Assembly (NCBI RefSeq): GCF_030055425.1
Contig: NZ_JASFYE010000002.1
Span: forward strand, 62,001 to 126,000
DNA: 64,000 nt
Direction: 5' to 3'
Origin: Methanothermobacter sp.
Lineage (GTDB): Archaea > Methanobacteriota > Methanobacteria > Methanobacteriales > Methanothermobacteraceae
In this document: piece after piece, positions 53,157 through 64,000 of the stretch
How the letters are laid out: each line of letters opens with the position of its first letter
Numbering within the stretch: the first letter of the stretch is position 1
Position numbers and translations under genes: made by a program
The notes under the pieces: model-generated
What the model was told of the DNA's origin: nothing
The model's database searches: none
What the model saw: only the letters and a program-made list of their open reading frames with translations

Positions 53157-56100
53157 TCAGGTCACGGTTATTCGCATATCAACCGTCCTGAACGTCCTGG
53201 TTATGTACACGTAACTGTAACCCCTGATTGTCTTTGTGTGGCTGAGGGTTGCTGACAGTGTATCCGCCCTGAAGGTCTCAGATAACCTTATGGTCCTTGT
53301 GTACCTGCTTGGGTTGTAGATTTTCCTTGTTGTAACGATTCTTGCATCGTACGGGTAGTATCCTATGGTTGCAGTGTAGGATCCTCCGGGTTTCAGTGTA
53401 AATTTGTAGGTCCTGTATGCAAGTTTCGACCCGCCTGATGAGTAGACTGTGACATAGTAGGTCACCGTTGCAGTGTAACTTCCGGTGTTTTTGAATGTGA
53501 ATCTGTAGGTCCTTTTCGCGGGGTTCACGTAAACTGTGGCGGTTTTCAGGTTGTTGATGCTGAATGTGTACGTACCTGGGGATGAGACGTATCTCTGGAA
53601 TCTTAGCACCGCACCCTCATGGGGCCCCACCCTCACCGTGTAGGTACCTATGAGATTGCCGTTGAGGTAAACTGGAATTTTAAAGTCACCTTCAATGTCA
53701 CCGGTGTTCTGGATTTCTGCCTCAACCTCGACGGTGGCTGATCCCACGGCACTGGATGGTGTCACATTGAGTGACCCTATTTCAAGTGTGGCCGGTTTCA
53801 GTGCATTGACGTTTGCAGCCGGTAGCGTGTCAACGGTAACTGTGTGGTTGCCCCGCTGTGTTATGGTGTATCTGAATGTCACGGTGGTCTCTCCACCGGC
53901 AGCCACGTTCACGGTCCTTGATGCAACCGGTACCCCGTCTATGTAGAGCCTTGCGGTGTAGTTGCCTGAAACTTCACCCACATTGGAGACCCTTGCAGAT
54001 GCTTCAACTGTCAGGGGAATAACACCCTCGTGTGGTGAAACCACCAGGTTGTCCACTACGAATGTGGCAGGTCTCAGGACCCTCACGGTCACAGGTGCAA
54101 GGTCATTAACCGTGACATCATGGGTTCCAGGGTCACTGAGTTCCACCCTGAAGAGTACTGTGGAGGCACCGGGTCCGGTAAGCTGCACGGTCTTATTCTG
54201 AACATTCACTCCGTCTATGTAGAGTCTTGCGGTGTAGTTGCCGCTTCCAGTCTCAGTGGTGCTGATTCTCGCTGTCACGTTGAATATGAGCGGTGAAACA
54301 CCTGAAATTGGAGTTACGTTGAGGTTTGAGACTAATGGTTCATTGAGTACCCTCACGGTTACGGGTGCAAGTGCCCCTACACCGGCAAGGTAGGGTCCCG
54401 GAGCATTAAGGGTGTGGTTGAACCTGACCTGAGATGTTCCGCCTGCGGGAACTGTCACGGTTCTTGTATCAACAGCTGCACCATTTATGTAGAGGGTTGC
54501 GGTGTACTCCCCATCAACCTCCCCAGTATTTCGGAGTTTAGCGGATGCTGCAAGGTCAAGGGGACTGAATCCTGATGCTGGGGTGACGGTTAAATCTGAG
54601 GCGGTTATATTCGCCGGTTTAAGAACCCTGACATTCCCTGTGAATCCATTGATTCCAACACTGTAGTTTCCGGGTAACAGTGTTGTTTTCATTGATATTT
54701 CCTTTGTTTCACCGGGGTTTAGGCTGACCGTGTTCTCCTGCACGGTTTGGTTGTTGACATGGAGCCTTGCTGTGAACCCTATGACCATATCATAGGGGTT
54801 TGTCACATTGAGGAGTGCCGTAACGTTCAATGTACCCACGCCTGTTACAGGGGTAACAGCGAAGCCCCCGAACACAGGTTCAGGGTCAAGAACCCTGATT
54901 TTAACCTCTTCACCGGAGTTAACACGGAGATTGTACTCCCCGGGAACAACGATCTGGTTCTTAATTGAAACCTTAACACTTGACCTTCCAGGGACGGTAA
55001 CCGTTTGGCTATCCCATGCGACACCGTCAAGGTAGACTGTAACTGTGAAATCACCTGGAAGGTCTCCCTGGTTCCTTACTGTGGCGTTCACCGTGACATT
55101 GAGGGGTGACTTACCCTCCGGTGGCGTTACTGTCACATTGGTGAGGGTGAAGCTGGCTGCACTGAGGGCCCTGACTGTGCCTGAAGTGGCGTTGTTGAGT
55201 GCTATGGTGTAAATTCCACTTTCGGGGAGTGTTATCATGGCAGAGAACGGTACCGTGCTTCCTGCGGGAACATCGAATGTCTGTTCATGGACATCCACTC
55301 CATTGACATAGATTATGGCCGTGTAACTCCTTGTCCTTGAGTCTATGTTGGTGATATTCGCGGTGACCATGACATTCAGCGGTGCAAGACCACTTTCCGG
55401 TGTCAGCCTGAAACCGTCCACAAGGAACTTTTCACCCTCCATCACATTGACGGTGAGGGGATCAAGGTCATTGATGGTTATTTCATGCATACCTGCGGCA
55501 AGGGTGCTGTTGAAGGATACCCTGACCCTTGATTTTGCATCAACAGTCACATTTTTGCTATCAACGAGAATTCCATCGATGTAGAGGCCAGCGGTGTATG
55601 TGTCAGGTAGATCACCGTAGTTCACAATATCAGCGGTCACGTTAACCCTGAGAGGTTCTGTGCCGGCACGTGGCAGTACTGTGAGATTTTCAGGGATTAT
55701 GAGCGGGCCGCTGAATGCCCTCACAGTGAATGGCTGGAAGTTGTTCACGGTGACAGAATATGTTCTGCTGTTCCTGAGAAGGTATTCGAAGCTGAAGTCC
55801 CTTGTTGCTTTTGAGGCCACCTCTATCCACTGCCATAAGACCTCGTATCCGTTAACGTAGAGCCCGAGGCGGTACCATCCGCTGGCATCCCCGTAGTTGG
55901 TGATTTTACCGTTAACTGTAATTGATAGGGGCGCTGTTCCATTCACCGGTGTTACACTGAGGTTACTTATGAAGAAGGGTGTGAACCTTGTGAGGAAACC
56001 ATCCGATAGTCCTGTGAGTTTCATTTTGATGGCATCCGATGTTACAGGGAAATTGTTTGACCAGGTCTTCCCGGCAATATAGATGTTCTGGTAGGGGTCA

Positions 56101-57320
56101 ACAGCAACAGCATAGCCATGATCCGCTTCTATACCCCCGAGATAGGAACTGTAGAGAACGCTTCGCGGGATGCTGAATTTTGTGATGAAGGCATCCACAC
56201 CGTTCAGTGACCTGTCAAGTGCTCCCTGTGTCAGGGGGAAGTCAGCTGAGGATGTTGTACCTGTCAGGTAAAGGTTTCCATACTTATCCGCTGCAATTCC
56301 ATATACTGCGTCATCACCGCTTCCACCGAAGTAGGTTGAGTATGTCACTTCCTCGCCATCGAATGCAGCGATGAATCCATCAGAAAGGCCCTTCTTTGTC
56401 CTCTGGTATGCAGTCATGGGGGTTATGGGGAAGTCCGTGGAGTTTGTTTTACCTGCAACGTATATGAGACCACCATAGGAGGTAATGGCGTGGCACATGT
56501 CCTGTCCTGAGCCTCCAAGGTAGGTTGAGTGGTCAAAGCTCATCTGTGGGGTGAATCTTGATATGAAGATATCATTCGTGCCCCTCTTATACTGTGAAAC
56601 CGCATCGAAGGTTACCGGAAAATCATCAGAGTAGGTGTACCCTGCAATGTAGATGTTTCCGTTGTTGTCAAGGGCAAGTCCCTGGCAGTAGTCATCCCAG
56701 GATCCTCCAAGGTAGCTCAGGTAAAGAATGTTAAGGTCATGATCAAGTTTGGCGATGAATGCATCATAACCACCCTTATTGATTTTCTGGTAGGCGTCAT
56801 CTGTCACCTGAAGGTCCTCTGAGATTGTGTATCCGCTCACATAGAGGGTCCCCGACCCGTCCATTGCAAGACCCTTTGCAACGTCATACCTGGATCCACC
56901 AATATATGTAATCCCGTCGATTTTGCCAAGGGGGTCTATCCGTGCCACGAATGCATCCTTAGCCTCAACACCATCCCTACTTATTTCGCCTGCAACATAG
57001 GCGTATCCATCTGCATCTGCGATTATCCTGTGTCCCCAGTCGTCTCCAGCTCCGCCGAAGGTTGTGTAGTATATGATCTTTCTTGATGTGTTGAACCTGG
57101 CCACGAAAACGTTTTTGGATCCGCTGACGTGCGTTGAACCGGTTACATAGATATAGCCTGATTCATCAACGTAAACGTCACGGGCCTCATCAACCACATC
57201 ACCACCGAGGTAGGTTGAGTAGTCCATGGTGTAATTTGATTCAGCAAAGGCTGAGCCCTGAAGGACGAGCATGAGGAGGAGCCCGCAGATCAGAGCAGAA
57301 AACTTTTTATATGGATCAAT
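53157..57320 (-). CDS. Very large secreted surface protein: seven-bladed SBBP propeller plus nine CARDB/Ig-like repeats
   Basis: About 1,387 residues. A signal peptide (FSALICGLLLMLVLQGSAFA) precedes seven repeats of the form STYLGGxxxDxxxxI (to about residue 455), expected to form a seven-bladed propeller. Then nine Ig-like repeats each open with a phrase like NLxVTPxxGxxPL and end before the next VRVL segment (about 455-1270). The C-terminal ~120 residues (TYRFTFKNTGSYTATVTYYV onward) are rich in Y and T and may attach to the cell wall. Many NxS/T sequons. GGAGG lies eight bases before an ATT at 57320; a GTG at 57329 overlaps the binding site, so AUU is favoured. Envelope or adhesion role inferred. 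Confidence 0.82.
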   Translation of the reverse strand: MDPYKKFSALICGLLLMLVLQGSAFAESNYTMDYSTYLGGDVVDEARDVYVDESGYIYVTGSTHVSGSKNVFVARFNTSRKIIYYTTFGGAGDDWGHRIIADADGYAYVAGEISRDGVEAKDAFVARIDPLGKIDGITYIGGSRYDVAKGLAMDGSGTLYVSGYTISEDLQVTDDAYQKINKGGYDAFIAKLDHDLNILYLSYLGGSWDDYCQGLALDNNGNIYIAGYTYSDDFPVTFDAVSQYKRGTNDIFISRFTPQMSFDHSTYLGGSGQDMCHAITSYGGLIYVAGKTNSTDFPITPMTAYQRTKKGLSDGFIAAFDGEEVTYSTYFGGSGDDAVYGIAADKYGNLYLTGTTSSADFPLTQGALDRSLNGVDAFITKFSIPRSVLYSSYLGGIEADHGYAVAVDPYQNIYIAGKTWSNNFPVTSDAIKMKLTGLSDGFLTRFTPFFISNLSVTPVNGTAPLSITVNGKITNYGDASGWYRLGLYVNGYEVLWQWIEVASKATRDFSFEYLLRNSRTYSVTVNNFQPFTVRAFSGPLIIPENLTVLPRAGTEPLRVNVTADIVNYGDLPDTYTAGLYIDGILVDSKNVTVDAKSRVRVSFNSTLAAGMHEITINDLDPLTVNVMEGEKFLVDGFRLTPESGLAPLNVMVTANITNIDSRTRSYTAIIYVNGVDVHEQTFDVPAGSTVPFSAMITLPESGIYTIALNNATSGTVRALSAASFTLTNVTVTPPEGKSPLNVTVNATVRNQGDLPGDFTVTVYLDGVAWDSQTVTVPGRSSVKVSIKNQIVVPGEYNLRVNSGEEVKIRVLDPEPVFGGFAVTPVTGVGTLNVTALLNVTNPYDMVIGFTARLHVNNQTVQENTVSLNPGETKEISMKTTLLPGNYSVGINGFTGNVRVLKPANITASDLTVTPASGFSPLDLAASAKLRNTGEVDGEYTATLYINGAAVDTRTVTVPAGGTSQVRFNHTLNAPGPYLAGVGALAPVTVRVLNEPLVSNLNVTPISGVSPLIFNVTARISTTETGSGNYTARLYIDGVNVQNKTVQLTGPGASTVLFRVELSDPGTHDVTVNDLAPVTVRVLRPATFVVDNLVVSPHEGVIPLTVEASARVSNVGEVSGNYTARLYIDGVPVASRTVNVAAGGETTVTFRYTITQRGNHTVTVDTLPAANVNALKPATLEIGSLNVTPSSAVGSATVEVEAEIQNTGDIEGDFKIPVYLNGNLIGTYTVRVGPHEGAVLRFQRYVSSPGTYTFSINNLKTATVYVNPAKRTYRFTFKNTGSYTATVTYYVTVYSSGGSKLAYRTYKFTLKPGGSYTATIGYYPYDARIVTTRKIYNPSRYTRTIRLSETFRADTLSATLSHTKTIRGYSYVYITRTFRTVDMRITVT

Positions 57321-57329
57321 GATTATCAC

Positions 57330-59869: not shown

Positions 59870-59884
59870 TTCATGGTGAGGGCA

Positions 59885-62608
59885 ATGGGGGGTATACATG
59901 AACTCCATGAGGAAGAGGTTTTCAGGAGTCTTGAGACTTCACCCTCTGGCCTTGACCCCCCTGAGGCTGAAAGGCGCCTTGAGAAATATGGCCCCAACGA
60001 ACTTGAGGAGGTCAGGGGTAAACCACACATACTTCTCTTTCTTTCCAACCTTTACAATGTACTGGCGATCCTGCTCTGGGTATCAGCTGCCCTGTCACTC
60101 ATCACAGGCAACACCCAGCTTGCAGTTGCGATTGTACTTGTAATAATCATAAACGCGGTCTTCAGTTTCTGGCAGGAATATGAGGCAGAGAAGGCTGCAG
60201 AGGCCCTAAGGGATATTCTGCCGGTTATGGTTAAGGTTCTGAGGGGTTCAGATGAAACTGTTATCCCTGCGGCTGAGGTGGTTCCTGGGGATCTGATCCT
60301 TCTCGAGGAGGGTGACACGGTTCCGGCAGATGCAAGGCTTGTTGAATCAAGCCAGCTCAAGATTGACGCATCCACCCTCACAGGCGAATCAAAACCGGTC
60401 AGAAAGGTGTCGCATCCAGTTGAAAAATTCGATAATTACATAGATATCGATAACATCGTATTTGCAGGTACACAGGTGGTATCAGGGACAGGAAGGGCCA
60501 TAGTATTTGCAACAGGAGGGGATACAGAATTCAGCAGGATAGCATCCCTTACACAGGAAGTGCGAGAGGAGCCAAGCCCCCTCCAGAGGCAGATATCCCG
60601 GGCTGCCAGTATCATAAGCATTCTGGCAGTTTCAATGGGCATCGTTCTTTTTGCAGTCAACCTCTACATTGTTAAACTCCCCCTCGAGACTGCGCTGATC
60701 TTTGCAATAGGGCTCATGGTTGCAAATGTACCGGAGGGCCTTCTACCAAGCGTAACACTGGCGCTTGCGGCATCAGCAAGGAAGATGGCCAGGGAGAACG
60801 CCCTTGTGAAGAGACTCTCCAGTGTGGAGACACTGGGATCCACAACAATAATCTGCACAGATAAGACCGGGACCCTCACAAGGGGTGAGATGACAGTAAG
60901 GAAGATCTGGATACCCTACAGGGTCGTGGAGGTCACAGGTTCAGGCTACAGGCCAGAGGGGGAATTCCTCTGCAACGGAAACCCCGTAACCCACCGGGAG
61001 GTAAGGGAGATAAGACTCCTAATGAGGGCGGCGTCATTCTGCAACGATTCAAAACTTGTTAGAGACGAAAAGGGCTGGCACGTGATTGGGGACACAACAG
61101 AGGGCGCACTCCTCGTGGCTGCAGAGAAGATAGGCTTTGACCTTGAGGGGGAACTTGAGAGTATGCCCCGAATAATGGAGCTCCCCTTTGATTCAAAGCG
61201 AAAGTCAATGACCTCCATCCATCAAAAATCAGGTAAAAGGGTGGCCTACGTCAAGGGGGCCCCAAAAAAGATAATAGATTTATCAGAGAGGATATCAGTG
61301 GATGGGAGACCCAGAACACTGGACGATGATGAAAAAAGGAAGATCATAGAGATACATGACAGAATGGCCTCTGAGGGCCTCAGGGTACTCGCATTCGCCT
61401 ACAGGGAACTCCCGGAGGACCTTGAGGATTACACGCCAGAGAATGTTGAAAGGGAACTGACACTGGTTGGAATGGCTGCAATGCATGACCCGCCCAGGGA
61501 GGGTGTGAAGGAGGCTGTGAGGCAGTGCAGAACTGCAGGTATAAGGATAATAATGATAACCGGGGATTACGGGTTAACAGCCGCGGCCATAGCAAAGGAA
61601 CTTGGTATCATAGAGTGCGACAGCTACAGGGTGATAAAGGGAAGGGAACTTGATGAAATGGAAGACCCTGAACTTTTAAGGATACTTTCTGAGGAGGAGA
61701 ACATAATATTTGCCCGGGCAGTCCCAGAACACAAGATGAGGATAGCGTCGGTCCTTGAGGGCGCCGAGGAGATAGTTGCAATGACAGGTGATGGGGTGAA
61801 TGATGCCCCTGCCCTCAGGAAGGCGGATATTGGCGTTGCAATGGGTAGCGGCACCGACGTTGCAAAGGAGGCCGCTGACATAGTACTCGCCGATGACAAC
61901 TTTGCAAGCATTGTAACTGCGGTGAGGGAGGGCCGGACGGTATATGAGAACATAAGAAAATTCATAACCTACATATTTTCACATGAAACCGCAGAGATAG
62001 TCCCATTTGTCCTTATGGTGCTCTTTGGAATACCCCTACCCATAACAATAATGCAGATACTTGCAATAGACCTCGGTACCGATACACTGCCCGCCCTTGC
62101 CCTGGGAAGATCCCCACCCGAATCTGATGTGATGCAGAGGCCACCAAGACCGGTTAGGGAGAGACTACTTAACCTTGAGGTCCTCCTCAGGGGGTACCTG
62201 TTCACAGGATCCATTGAGGCATTTCTTGTGATGATGGCATACTTCCTTGTGCTCTCAGGGGGAGGATGGGTGCCAGGCCAGAGCCTCCCCGCAGATGACC
62301 CCCTCTACATGAGGGCAACAACTGTTGTCTTTGCAGGTATAGTGATGGCCCAGATGGGCAATCTCCTCTCATCACAGACCACCCGCTCCTCAGCACTGAA
62401 GGTGGGGCTTCTGAGGAACAGGTGGATACCCGCCGGCATGATATTCGCAGTCATTGTGATGCTGATGGTCATATATCTGCCCCCAATGCAGCCGGTTTTC
62501 GGGACACAGCCACTGAAACCGGTTGAATGGCTGATGATCATCCTCTTTGCTCCACTGGTTTTTCTTACAGATGAGGCGAGGAAGTTAATTCAGAGGAGGC
62601 TTGGTTGA
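59885..62608 (+). CDS. Type IIC (Na,K-ATPase-like) cation-transporting P-type ATPase
   Basis: 907 residues. The phosphorylation motif is CTDKTGTLT, with TGES in the A-domain (LTGESKPV), KGAPK and TGDGVNDAPALRKADIG. TM4 reads VANVPEGLLPSVTLALA, TM5 SHETAEIVPFVLM and TM6 AIDLGTDTLPALAL. The Glu of TM4, the Glu of TM5 and both Asp of TM6 (IDLGTD) that coordinate Na+/K+ in animal Na,K-ATPase are conserved, so Na+ and/or K+ are the likely ions rather than heavy metals. There is no beta subunit. ATG 59885 follows GGTGAGG; ATG 59873 adds four residues. It precedes the mthK region. Confidence 0.9.
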   Translation: MGGIHELHEEEVFRSLETSPSGLDPPEAERRLEKYGPNELEEVRGKPHILLFLSNLYNVLAILLWVSAALSLITGNTQLAVAIVLVIIINAVFSFWQEYEAEKAAEALRDILPVMVKVLRGSDETVIPAAEVVPGDLILLEEGDTVPADARLVESSQLKIDASTLTGESKPVRKVSHPVEKFDNYIDIDNIVFAGTQVVSGTGRAIVFATGGDTEFSRIASLTQEVREEPSPLQRQISRAASIISILAVSMGIVLFAVNLYIVKLPLETALIFAIGLMVANVPEGLLPSVTLALAASARKMARENALVKRLSSVETLGSTTIICTDKTGTLTRGEMTVRKIWIPYRVVEVTGSGYRPEGEFLCNGNPVTHREVREIRLLMRAASFCNDSKLVRDEKGWHVIGDTTEGALLVAAEKIGFDLEGELESMPRIMELPFDSKRKSMTSIHQKSGKRVAYVKGAPKKIIDLSERISVDGRPRTLDDDEKRKIIEIHDRMASEGLRVLAFAYRELPEDLEDYTPENVERELTLVGMAAMHDPPREGVKEAVRQCRTAGIRIIMITGDYGLTAAAIAKELGIIECDSYRVIKGRELDEMEDPELLRILSEEENIIFARAVPEHKMRIASVLEGAEEIVAMTGDGVNDAPALRKADIGVAMGSGTDVAKEAADIVLADDNFASIVTAVREGRTVYENIRKFITYIFSHETAEIVPFVLMVLFGIPLPITIMQILAIDLGTDTLPALALGRSPPESDVMQRPPRPVRERLLNLEVLLRGYLFTGSIEAFLVMMAYFLVLSGGGWVPGQSLPADDPLYMRATTVVFAGIVMAQMGNLLSSQTTRSSALKVGLLRNRWIPAGMIFAVIVMLMVIYLPPMQPVFGTQPLKPVEWLMIILFAPLVFLTDEARKLIQRRLG

Positions 62609-62724
62609 TCAGATATTTTTTCCTCAGAGAAGACCGGTAACCATATCATGAGCCGACTAGCAGGACTCTTTCAGAAATTTTTTAATAATGCAAATTAGAA
62701 ACGTATTGCAGAGGAGGTGCCTGA

Positions 62725-62994
62725 ATGAGATGGATTGCACTTATGCTTTTGATGGTATTTCTTGCCGGCGCCCTTGAAGCATGCGCTGCACACGACTCAG
62801 ATTCCATGAAACCCACAATCAAGAGGGGCGGATTCAGCGGATTTAAGGGTTCATCAAAGAAGCTCAAAACAGATCTTGACGATGACGATGAGGGGGGCTC
62901 CGGCGGCTGGTGGCTGCTTGCAGCTATTGTGATTGTTCTGATTGTTGCTGTGGTTCTGGCATACATATTCTTCACAAGGCGGGGGTCCCCATAA
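62725..62994 (+). CDS. Small acidic membrane protein, unknown
   Basis: 89 residues: an N-terminal signal-like helix ([17 protein letters not shown], with a possible lipobox-type Cys), a linker with [14 protein letters not shown], an acidic patch DLDDDDEGG, and a second helix ([22 protein letters not shown]) ending in FTRRGSP. GAGGAGGTG precedes the ATG. It lies 16 bases upstream of mthK and probably shares its transcript, so it could be a channel-associated protein. No family recognised. Confidence 0.8.
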
Positions 62995-63010
62995 GGGAAG
63001 GGTAATTGAA

Positions 63011-64000
63011 ATGGTGCTCATAGTTGAGATAATAAGGAAACACCTTCCCCGGCTTATGAGGGTCCCGGCTGCGCGGATATTCCTCCTTGCAGCAGCGGTC
63101 ATCGCCTACGGAACCCTTGGATTCCACTTCATTGAGGGTGAATCATGGACGGTATCATTCTACTGGACCTTCGTGACCATAGGGACCGTGGGTTATGGGG
63201 ACTACAGCCCATCAACACCACTGGGGATGTACTTCACCGTGACCCTCATAGTCCTGGGTATAGGGACATTTGCCATCGCAGTTGAGACACTCCTTGAATT
63301 CCTGATAAAGAGACAGCAGATGAGGCTTATGGGGCTGATAGACGTGGTTAAATCAAAACATGTGGTTATATGCGGGTGGAGTGAGAGCACACTGGAGTGC
63401 CTGAGGGAACTCGGTGGAAGCGAGGTCTTTGTGCTCGCAGAGGATGAGGGCGTCAGGAAGACTGTCCTCAAGAATGGTGCCAATTTCGTGCATGGAGACC
63501 CAACAAGGATATCTGACCTTGAAAAGGCCAATGTAAAGGGTTCAAGGGCAGTTATAGTTGACATGGAGTCTGATTCAGAGACAATACACTGTATACTGGG
63601 GATAAGGAAAATTGACTCCAGTGTGAGGATAATAGCCGAGGCCGAACGCTATGAGAACATCGAGCAGATCCGGATGGCAGGGGCCGACCAGGTGATCTCA
63701 CCATTTGTTATATCCGGCAGGCTCATGTCAAAAAGCATAGACGATGGCTATGAGGCCATGTTTGTACAGGATGTCCTTGCAGAGGGATCCACAAGGAGGA
63801 TGGTCGAAGTTCCAGTACCCCCTGAAAGCCCCATTGAGGGTGTATCGGTTCTTGAAGCGGACATCCATGAGCGGACAGGCGTGATAGTAATTGGCGTGGG
63901 GCGGGGCGATGAACTCATAATAGACCCACCCAGGGATTACGTATTCAAAGAGGGTGATATAATTCTGGGGATAGGGAAAACCCATGAGATAGATCGCCTG
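63011..64000 (+). CDS. mthK: Calcium-gated potassium channel MthK (partial at window end)
   Basis: 330 of about 336 residues are visible. Two pore helices flank the selectivity filter TVGYGD (59-64); Gly83 is the hinge and Ala88 the narrow point of the inner helix. From residue 107 ([18 protein letters not shown]) comes the RCK domain, with Ca2+ ligands Asp184, Glu210 and Glu212 all present. In the known protein translation also starts at Met107, giving free RCK subunits that complete the octameric gating ring; Met107 is kept here. Start ATG 63011 follows GGG...AAGGG by a short gap. The last few codons lie outside. Confidence 0.95.

Follow-up and report, generated by a model that had tools for sequence, protein, structure and literature searches.

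Accessory subunits such as KCNE, FXYD and the BK beta and gamma proteins (small, with the N-terminus outside and a transmembrane helix followed by a basic inner tail) are each paired with a channel or a pump. The K+ channel MthK, which has been studied in many laboratories, serves as a standard system for how K+ channels are gated by Ca2+, inactivate and conduct; to our knowledge, there is no agreement yet on what it does in the cell. Small proteins that bind larger membrane complexes have also been described, AcrZ (PMC7267776) and CydX (PMC6005532) among them, and in methanogens the small protein MtrI is found on the Mtr complex (PMC12774963). For MthK itself, our search of the open-access literature found no described partner; the solved structures that match the channel, PDB 1LNQ and later, are annotated as MthK, and a small partner is absent from the open-access papers searched.

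Here, we are concerned with a single question: does MthK naturally work with a partner that is missing from the structural studies? We argue that it probably does. If so, research on the native channel has so far lacked a component, even in the strain whose protein was crystallised.

The window (the whole stretch of 64,000 nucleotides of Methanothermobacter DNA that was analysed) ends, reading rightward, with a YchF-like GTPase, a P-type ATPase, a small gene that we call SP and mthK. The ATPase, or pump (59873..62608, + strand), is an open reading frame of 911 amino acids from the ATG at 59873, the original prediction having started it at the ATG at 59885. SP (62725..62994, + strand), recognised as an open reading frame and by alignment and profile search, encodes an 89-residue small membrane protein of an unnamed family. 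Finally, mthK (63011..64000, + strand) starts at the ATG at 63011 and runs past the window's end, with 330 of its 336 codons inside and its last base at G000:C2:126018 in the assembly, where the protein has 336 residues; domains, alignment and the match to 1LNQ identify it as a Ca2+-gated K+ channel with a two-TM pore and an RCK domain. The three genes are present as first described, and the gap from the SP stop codon to the mthK ATG is exactly the 16 bp claimed. Further to the left, the minus strand (53157-57329) encodes a secreted protein of 1,390 residues in which, by eye, an N-terminal part consists of SBBP-like repeats and many CARDB-like repeats occur; its N-terminal end also turns up before this locus in other members of Methanothermobacter.

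Pfam models find Ion_trans_2, TrkA_N and TrkA_C in the window's MthK, and the TVGYGD filter is present in the alignment. The protein is an ortholog, 85% identical, of the channel of G005 (which we take to be M. thermautotrophicus deltaH), and it keeps the pore filter, the Ca2+ ligands of the RCK domain (D184, E210 and E212) and the internal start Met107. Because the G005 protein is identical to PDB 1LNQ across all 336 residues, the strain behind the MthK structures has an SP gene before its mthK; that SP is 91 residues long, lies directly before mthK at a gap of 102 bp (G005:C1:1380799-1381074) and is presumably MTH1519. We found no mention of MTH1519 or MTH1520 in the open-access literature. 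In all four Methanobacteriaceae orthologs of MthK (L022, L023, L024 and L025; genera g8 and g9), E212 is replaced by Gln, a change that may alter their response to Ca2+.

How constant, then, is the pairing of SP with MthK? Profile searches of 151 Methanobacteriales genomes with SP (A1) and MthK (A2) found true MthK in 12, all above 640 bits with E < 1e-190 (a remote relative in G096, at 128.9 bits, was left out of the 12), and they found SP in 11 of these 12, at 100-137 bits and E < 1e-28, and in none of the 139 genomes without MthK. The next best SP match in the order scored 20.6 bits (E 5e-4); further weak matches had E of 1e-3 to 8e-3, and weak ones in G125, G029 and L012 were set aside as different proteins in unrelated contexts. 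In all 11 genomes, mthK follows immediately after SP on the same strand, at a distance of 13-102 bp, with no gene between the two in any genome that has both, and this adjacency extends across Methanothermobacter and the two Methanobacteriaceae genera, so that the pair singled out by the original prediction is indeed a conserved one. A scan of genome contigs with MthK brought up remote relatives only, the nearest of which (L033) has no SP-like reading frame upstream. For co-presence, a Fisher calculation gives p = 7e-16 while ignoring kinship among the genomes, and because of this, independent evolutionary events, to which we return below, carry more weight.

Such a consistent genomic association is what one would expect of a dedicated channel partner, and SP shows it with one exception. 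That exception, G007, keeps an intact MthK and has no intact SP reading frame, which means that MthK does not strictly need SP. The interval before its mthK is similar in size to the others, complete with a Shine-Dalgarno sequence and an ATG, and decay of an SP gene at this place is plausible; of 300 shuffled sequences, between 25 and 253 resembled intact SP genes locally, at the DNA level, as well as this interval does, and since the interval did not outscore the shuffles, we do not call it a proven pseudogene. The G007 channel (L020), the sole one without an intact SP, carries E44Q, P70A and L71A on the outer side of the pore. A70 and Q44 are found too in orthologs that have SP, and a tie between these changes and the absence of SP is only suggestive.

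The DNA in front of SP is also conserved. The last 57 bp or so before the gene (TTTCAGAAATTTTTTAATAATGC...GGAGGTG) are nearly identical in the window's four closest species, in which the spacing of SP and mthK is 13-18 bp; further upstream, the sequences diverge. The block contains the Shine-Dalgarno sequence GGAGGTG (62713..62719, + strand), which lies 5 bases before the ATG and is conserved in Methanothermobacter, and it includes a BRE/TATA-like element, ttcagaaattttttaataatgc (62671..62692, + strand), that makes it a good candidate for the promoter of both SP and mthK. In g8 and g9, the gap between the two genes is 65-71 bp and A+T-rich; it could hide a second promoter, and a single transcript there is not certain.

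What kind of protein is SP? Aligned, the 11 intact SPs have a common layout: a hydrophobic stretch at the N-terminus, a middle region (41-68 residues) in which a part rich in Lys, Gly and Ser precedes a run of Asp, a strongly hydrophobic helix that opens with Trp or other aromatics, and a tail of RR or KK. In the window's protein, residues 1-22 (62725..62790, + strand), where hydrophobicity is at its maximum, are a probable cleaved signal peptide (or a first TM helix), the cut presumably falling at ACAA/HD. Residues 23-59 (62791..62901, + strand) form a putative outer segment, apparently disordered (pLDDT < 50 over 25-43 and 45-52), that ends in the Asp run (D50, D52-D55 and E56). Residues 60-86 (62902..62982, + strand) are, by alignment, hydrophobicity and predicted helix, a TM helix with a Trp pair at its outer end and Arg-Arg at its inner end. 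P30, G39, S43, D50, D52 and D55 are invariant in the alignment. AlphaFold2 places helices at 3-24 and 60-86 around a disordered middle, with moderate confidence (mean pLDDT 60), and its prediction for the deltaH SP modelled alone is similar. The most likely reading of these models is a type I single-pass protein, its signal peptide removed, with a disordered Asp-rich segment outside and one TM helix; were the protein left uncut as a hairpin of two helices, its middle would again lie outside. The earlier description of a two-helix acidic protein was therefore right about the two hydrophobic stretches and the Asp run, while the first stretch resembles a signal peptide. A Cys lies near the signal end in all SPs, where the fit to a lipobox, as a lipoprotein reading would have it, is poor.

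Searches of Pfam, NCBIfam, PDB and PHROGs with SP gave sub-threshold matches or none, and no paralog was found in its own genome. SP is nevertheless a real gene, beyond chance, because its pN/pS is 0.31, 0.35 and 0.18 in three clades; it is also conserved across two families. It diverges much faster than MthK, with between-clade identities of 43-48% against 85%, and the dN/dS of MthK is 0.02-0.08.

We propose that SP and mthK are a two-gene transcription unit and that MthK has in SP a small membrane protein as its dedicated partner, a proposal whose chances we judge to be about even. A functional link of some kind between SP and MthK is quite likely; direct binding of SP to MthK as an accessory subunit, judged from genomic evidence, falls slightly short of an even chance; and the fullest version, in which SP is a resident auxiliary subunit, its Asp-rich outer segment sets external-cation-dependent behaviour and the native channel is a hetero-oligomer, is offered tentatively. 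The observations from which all of this starts are adjacency and gene order, co-presence and co-absence, purifying selection, the promoter-like block and the layout of SP. From there, the mechanism might run as follows: SP would be co-transcribed with mthK; its signal peptide would be removed and its middle would face outside; its TM helix would pack on the pore domain of MthK, as KCNE or FXYD do on theirs; and the Asp run would come to lie just above the membrane, at the outer mouth of the pore, where its charge might increase K+ nearby, or bind or screen divalents, and so alter inactivation or conduction. Alternatively, SP might aid the assembly of MthK, or its stability at high temperature. 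Against the proposal stand the small number of independent co-losses (about three), the much faster evolution of SP and the fact that, in published work, recombinant MthK works without it.

Might the two proteins share a regulon, with an envelope or osmotic function, and never touch? They would then be co-transcribed and be lost together because one and the same condition calls for both, and an operon arrangement with co-loss fits a shared pathway as well as it fits a complex; the disordered outer segment of SP could, moreover, touch the cell wall. One would expect a general envelope protein to occur somewhere in free-standing form, however, and nowhere in the order is there such a copy of SP, which leaves us regarding this explanation as unlikely, if still to be taken seriously. 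The same genomic evidence, with SP encoded just before MthK, would suit a factor for the assembly, insertion or stability of the channel that is not a resident subunit, and small single-pass proteins with such roles exist in bacteria, where KdpF stabilises Kdp. A pure insertion helper would not need a conserved Asp-rich outer segment, though, and we think this role improbable.

The partner proposal gains from loci where both genes are missing. The old neighbourhood reads YchF, pump, SP, mthK, sfsA (convergent), cfbD, a nucleotidyltransferase and hisH, and in three lineages, SP and mthK are missing together from a locus that is otherwise kept. In a CfbD tree, whose deep branches are poorly resolved, g11 (G049) pairs with g8 (support 95/91) and g16 (G071) with g9 (94/75) as sister lineages. 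G049 has, on one contig, a phosphoesterase 76% identical to the one that borders SP in g8, then 93 bp, then sfsA, with neither SP nor mthK; in G034, of g8, the same interval from phosphoesterase to sfsA is 1,723 bp and holds both. In G071, the pump and sfsA stops are about 30 bp apart, and SP and mthK are both absent. G009, of family f3, keeps YchF, pump, sfsA and cfbD, with a different gene between pump and sfsA and neither of the pair. Because the deep CfbD branches are unresolved, we count about three independent events, of loss or of gain. Co-presence, together with joint absence at loci that are kept, makes SP and mthK behave as a two-gene cassette. With only about three independent co-absences, and with sfsA and cfbD as further conserved neighbours, SP and mthK could in principle be neighbours deleted jointly by chance, with no functional link; but sfsA, cfbD and sometimes the pump survive where the pair is gone, SP occurs in no genome without MthK and nothing intervenes between the two, and we consider such hitchhiking very improbable.

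The pump is a neighbour outside this cassette. Its domains, family score and residues mark it as a P2 ATPase that shares features with the Na,K type: its E288, E708, D733 and D737 correspond to the carboxylates E327, E779, D804 and D808 of the animal Na,K-ATPase, and like the Na,K- and H,K-ATPase alpha subunits, it has the motifs VANVPEGLL and IDLGTD. It differs from them in scoring 649.6 bits with TIGR01106 (Na,K-ATPase alpha, IIC), below the curated cut-off of 946.1 and closely followed by a PMR1-type Ca2+ model at 638.2, and in having Glu at N776 and, at the third Na+ site, Asn at D926 and Ala at E954. The claim of all four cation ligands holds, in other words, for the four carboxylates and not for these three positions. 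A second P2 ATPase of the same genome (G000:C5:37955-40561, L098) is about 40% identical to the pump and has VAAIPEGL in M4. In G006 (L021/L105), the pump match covers query residues 3-718 only, in a frame of 747 amino acids, with the C-terminal part in another frame, which suggests a frameshift.

As for distribution, five genomes (G009, G011, G013, G015 and G071) have the pump, at 62-69% identity, with neither SP nor MthK, and G048 and G075 (the latter a 94% complete draft) have SP and MthK without the pump. Between pump and SP, deltaH and G002 have a gene whose product is about 130 residues long, g8 has two genes and g9 has two different ones. The ion module of pump, SP and MthK put forward in the original prediction does not survive this separate inheritance, the unrelated genes that intervene in three lineages and the promoter-like block that SP has of its own, and the interpretation as a whole is partly supported. 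That SP serves the pump in the manner of an FXYD subunit, as its FXYD-like size and probable topology and its place directly downstream in the window might suggest, is scarcely credible given the pump genomes without SP, the SP-MthK genomes without a pump and the separate block before SP.

We come back, then, to SP as a partner of MthK. With AcrZ, CydX, KdpF and MtrI, SP can be compared as a small protein, and it differs from them in its Asp-rich outer segment, its signal-peptide-like start and a K+ channel as its would-be target. No sequence similarity to KCNE, FXYD or the BK beta and gamma subunits was found, and SP is archaeal and associated with MthK by genomics; like them, it is small, probably has its N-terminus outside and a TM helix with a basic inner tail, and is paired with a channel. 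If SP proves to be a resident subunit, many MthK structures and recordings describe the pore-forming subunit only, and if the partnership is true, SP would be an archaeal counterpart of KCNE-like subunits, testable in assays that already exist.
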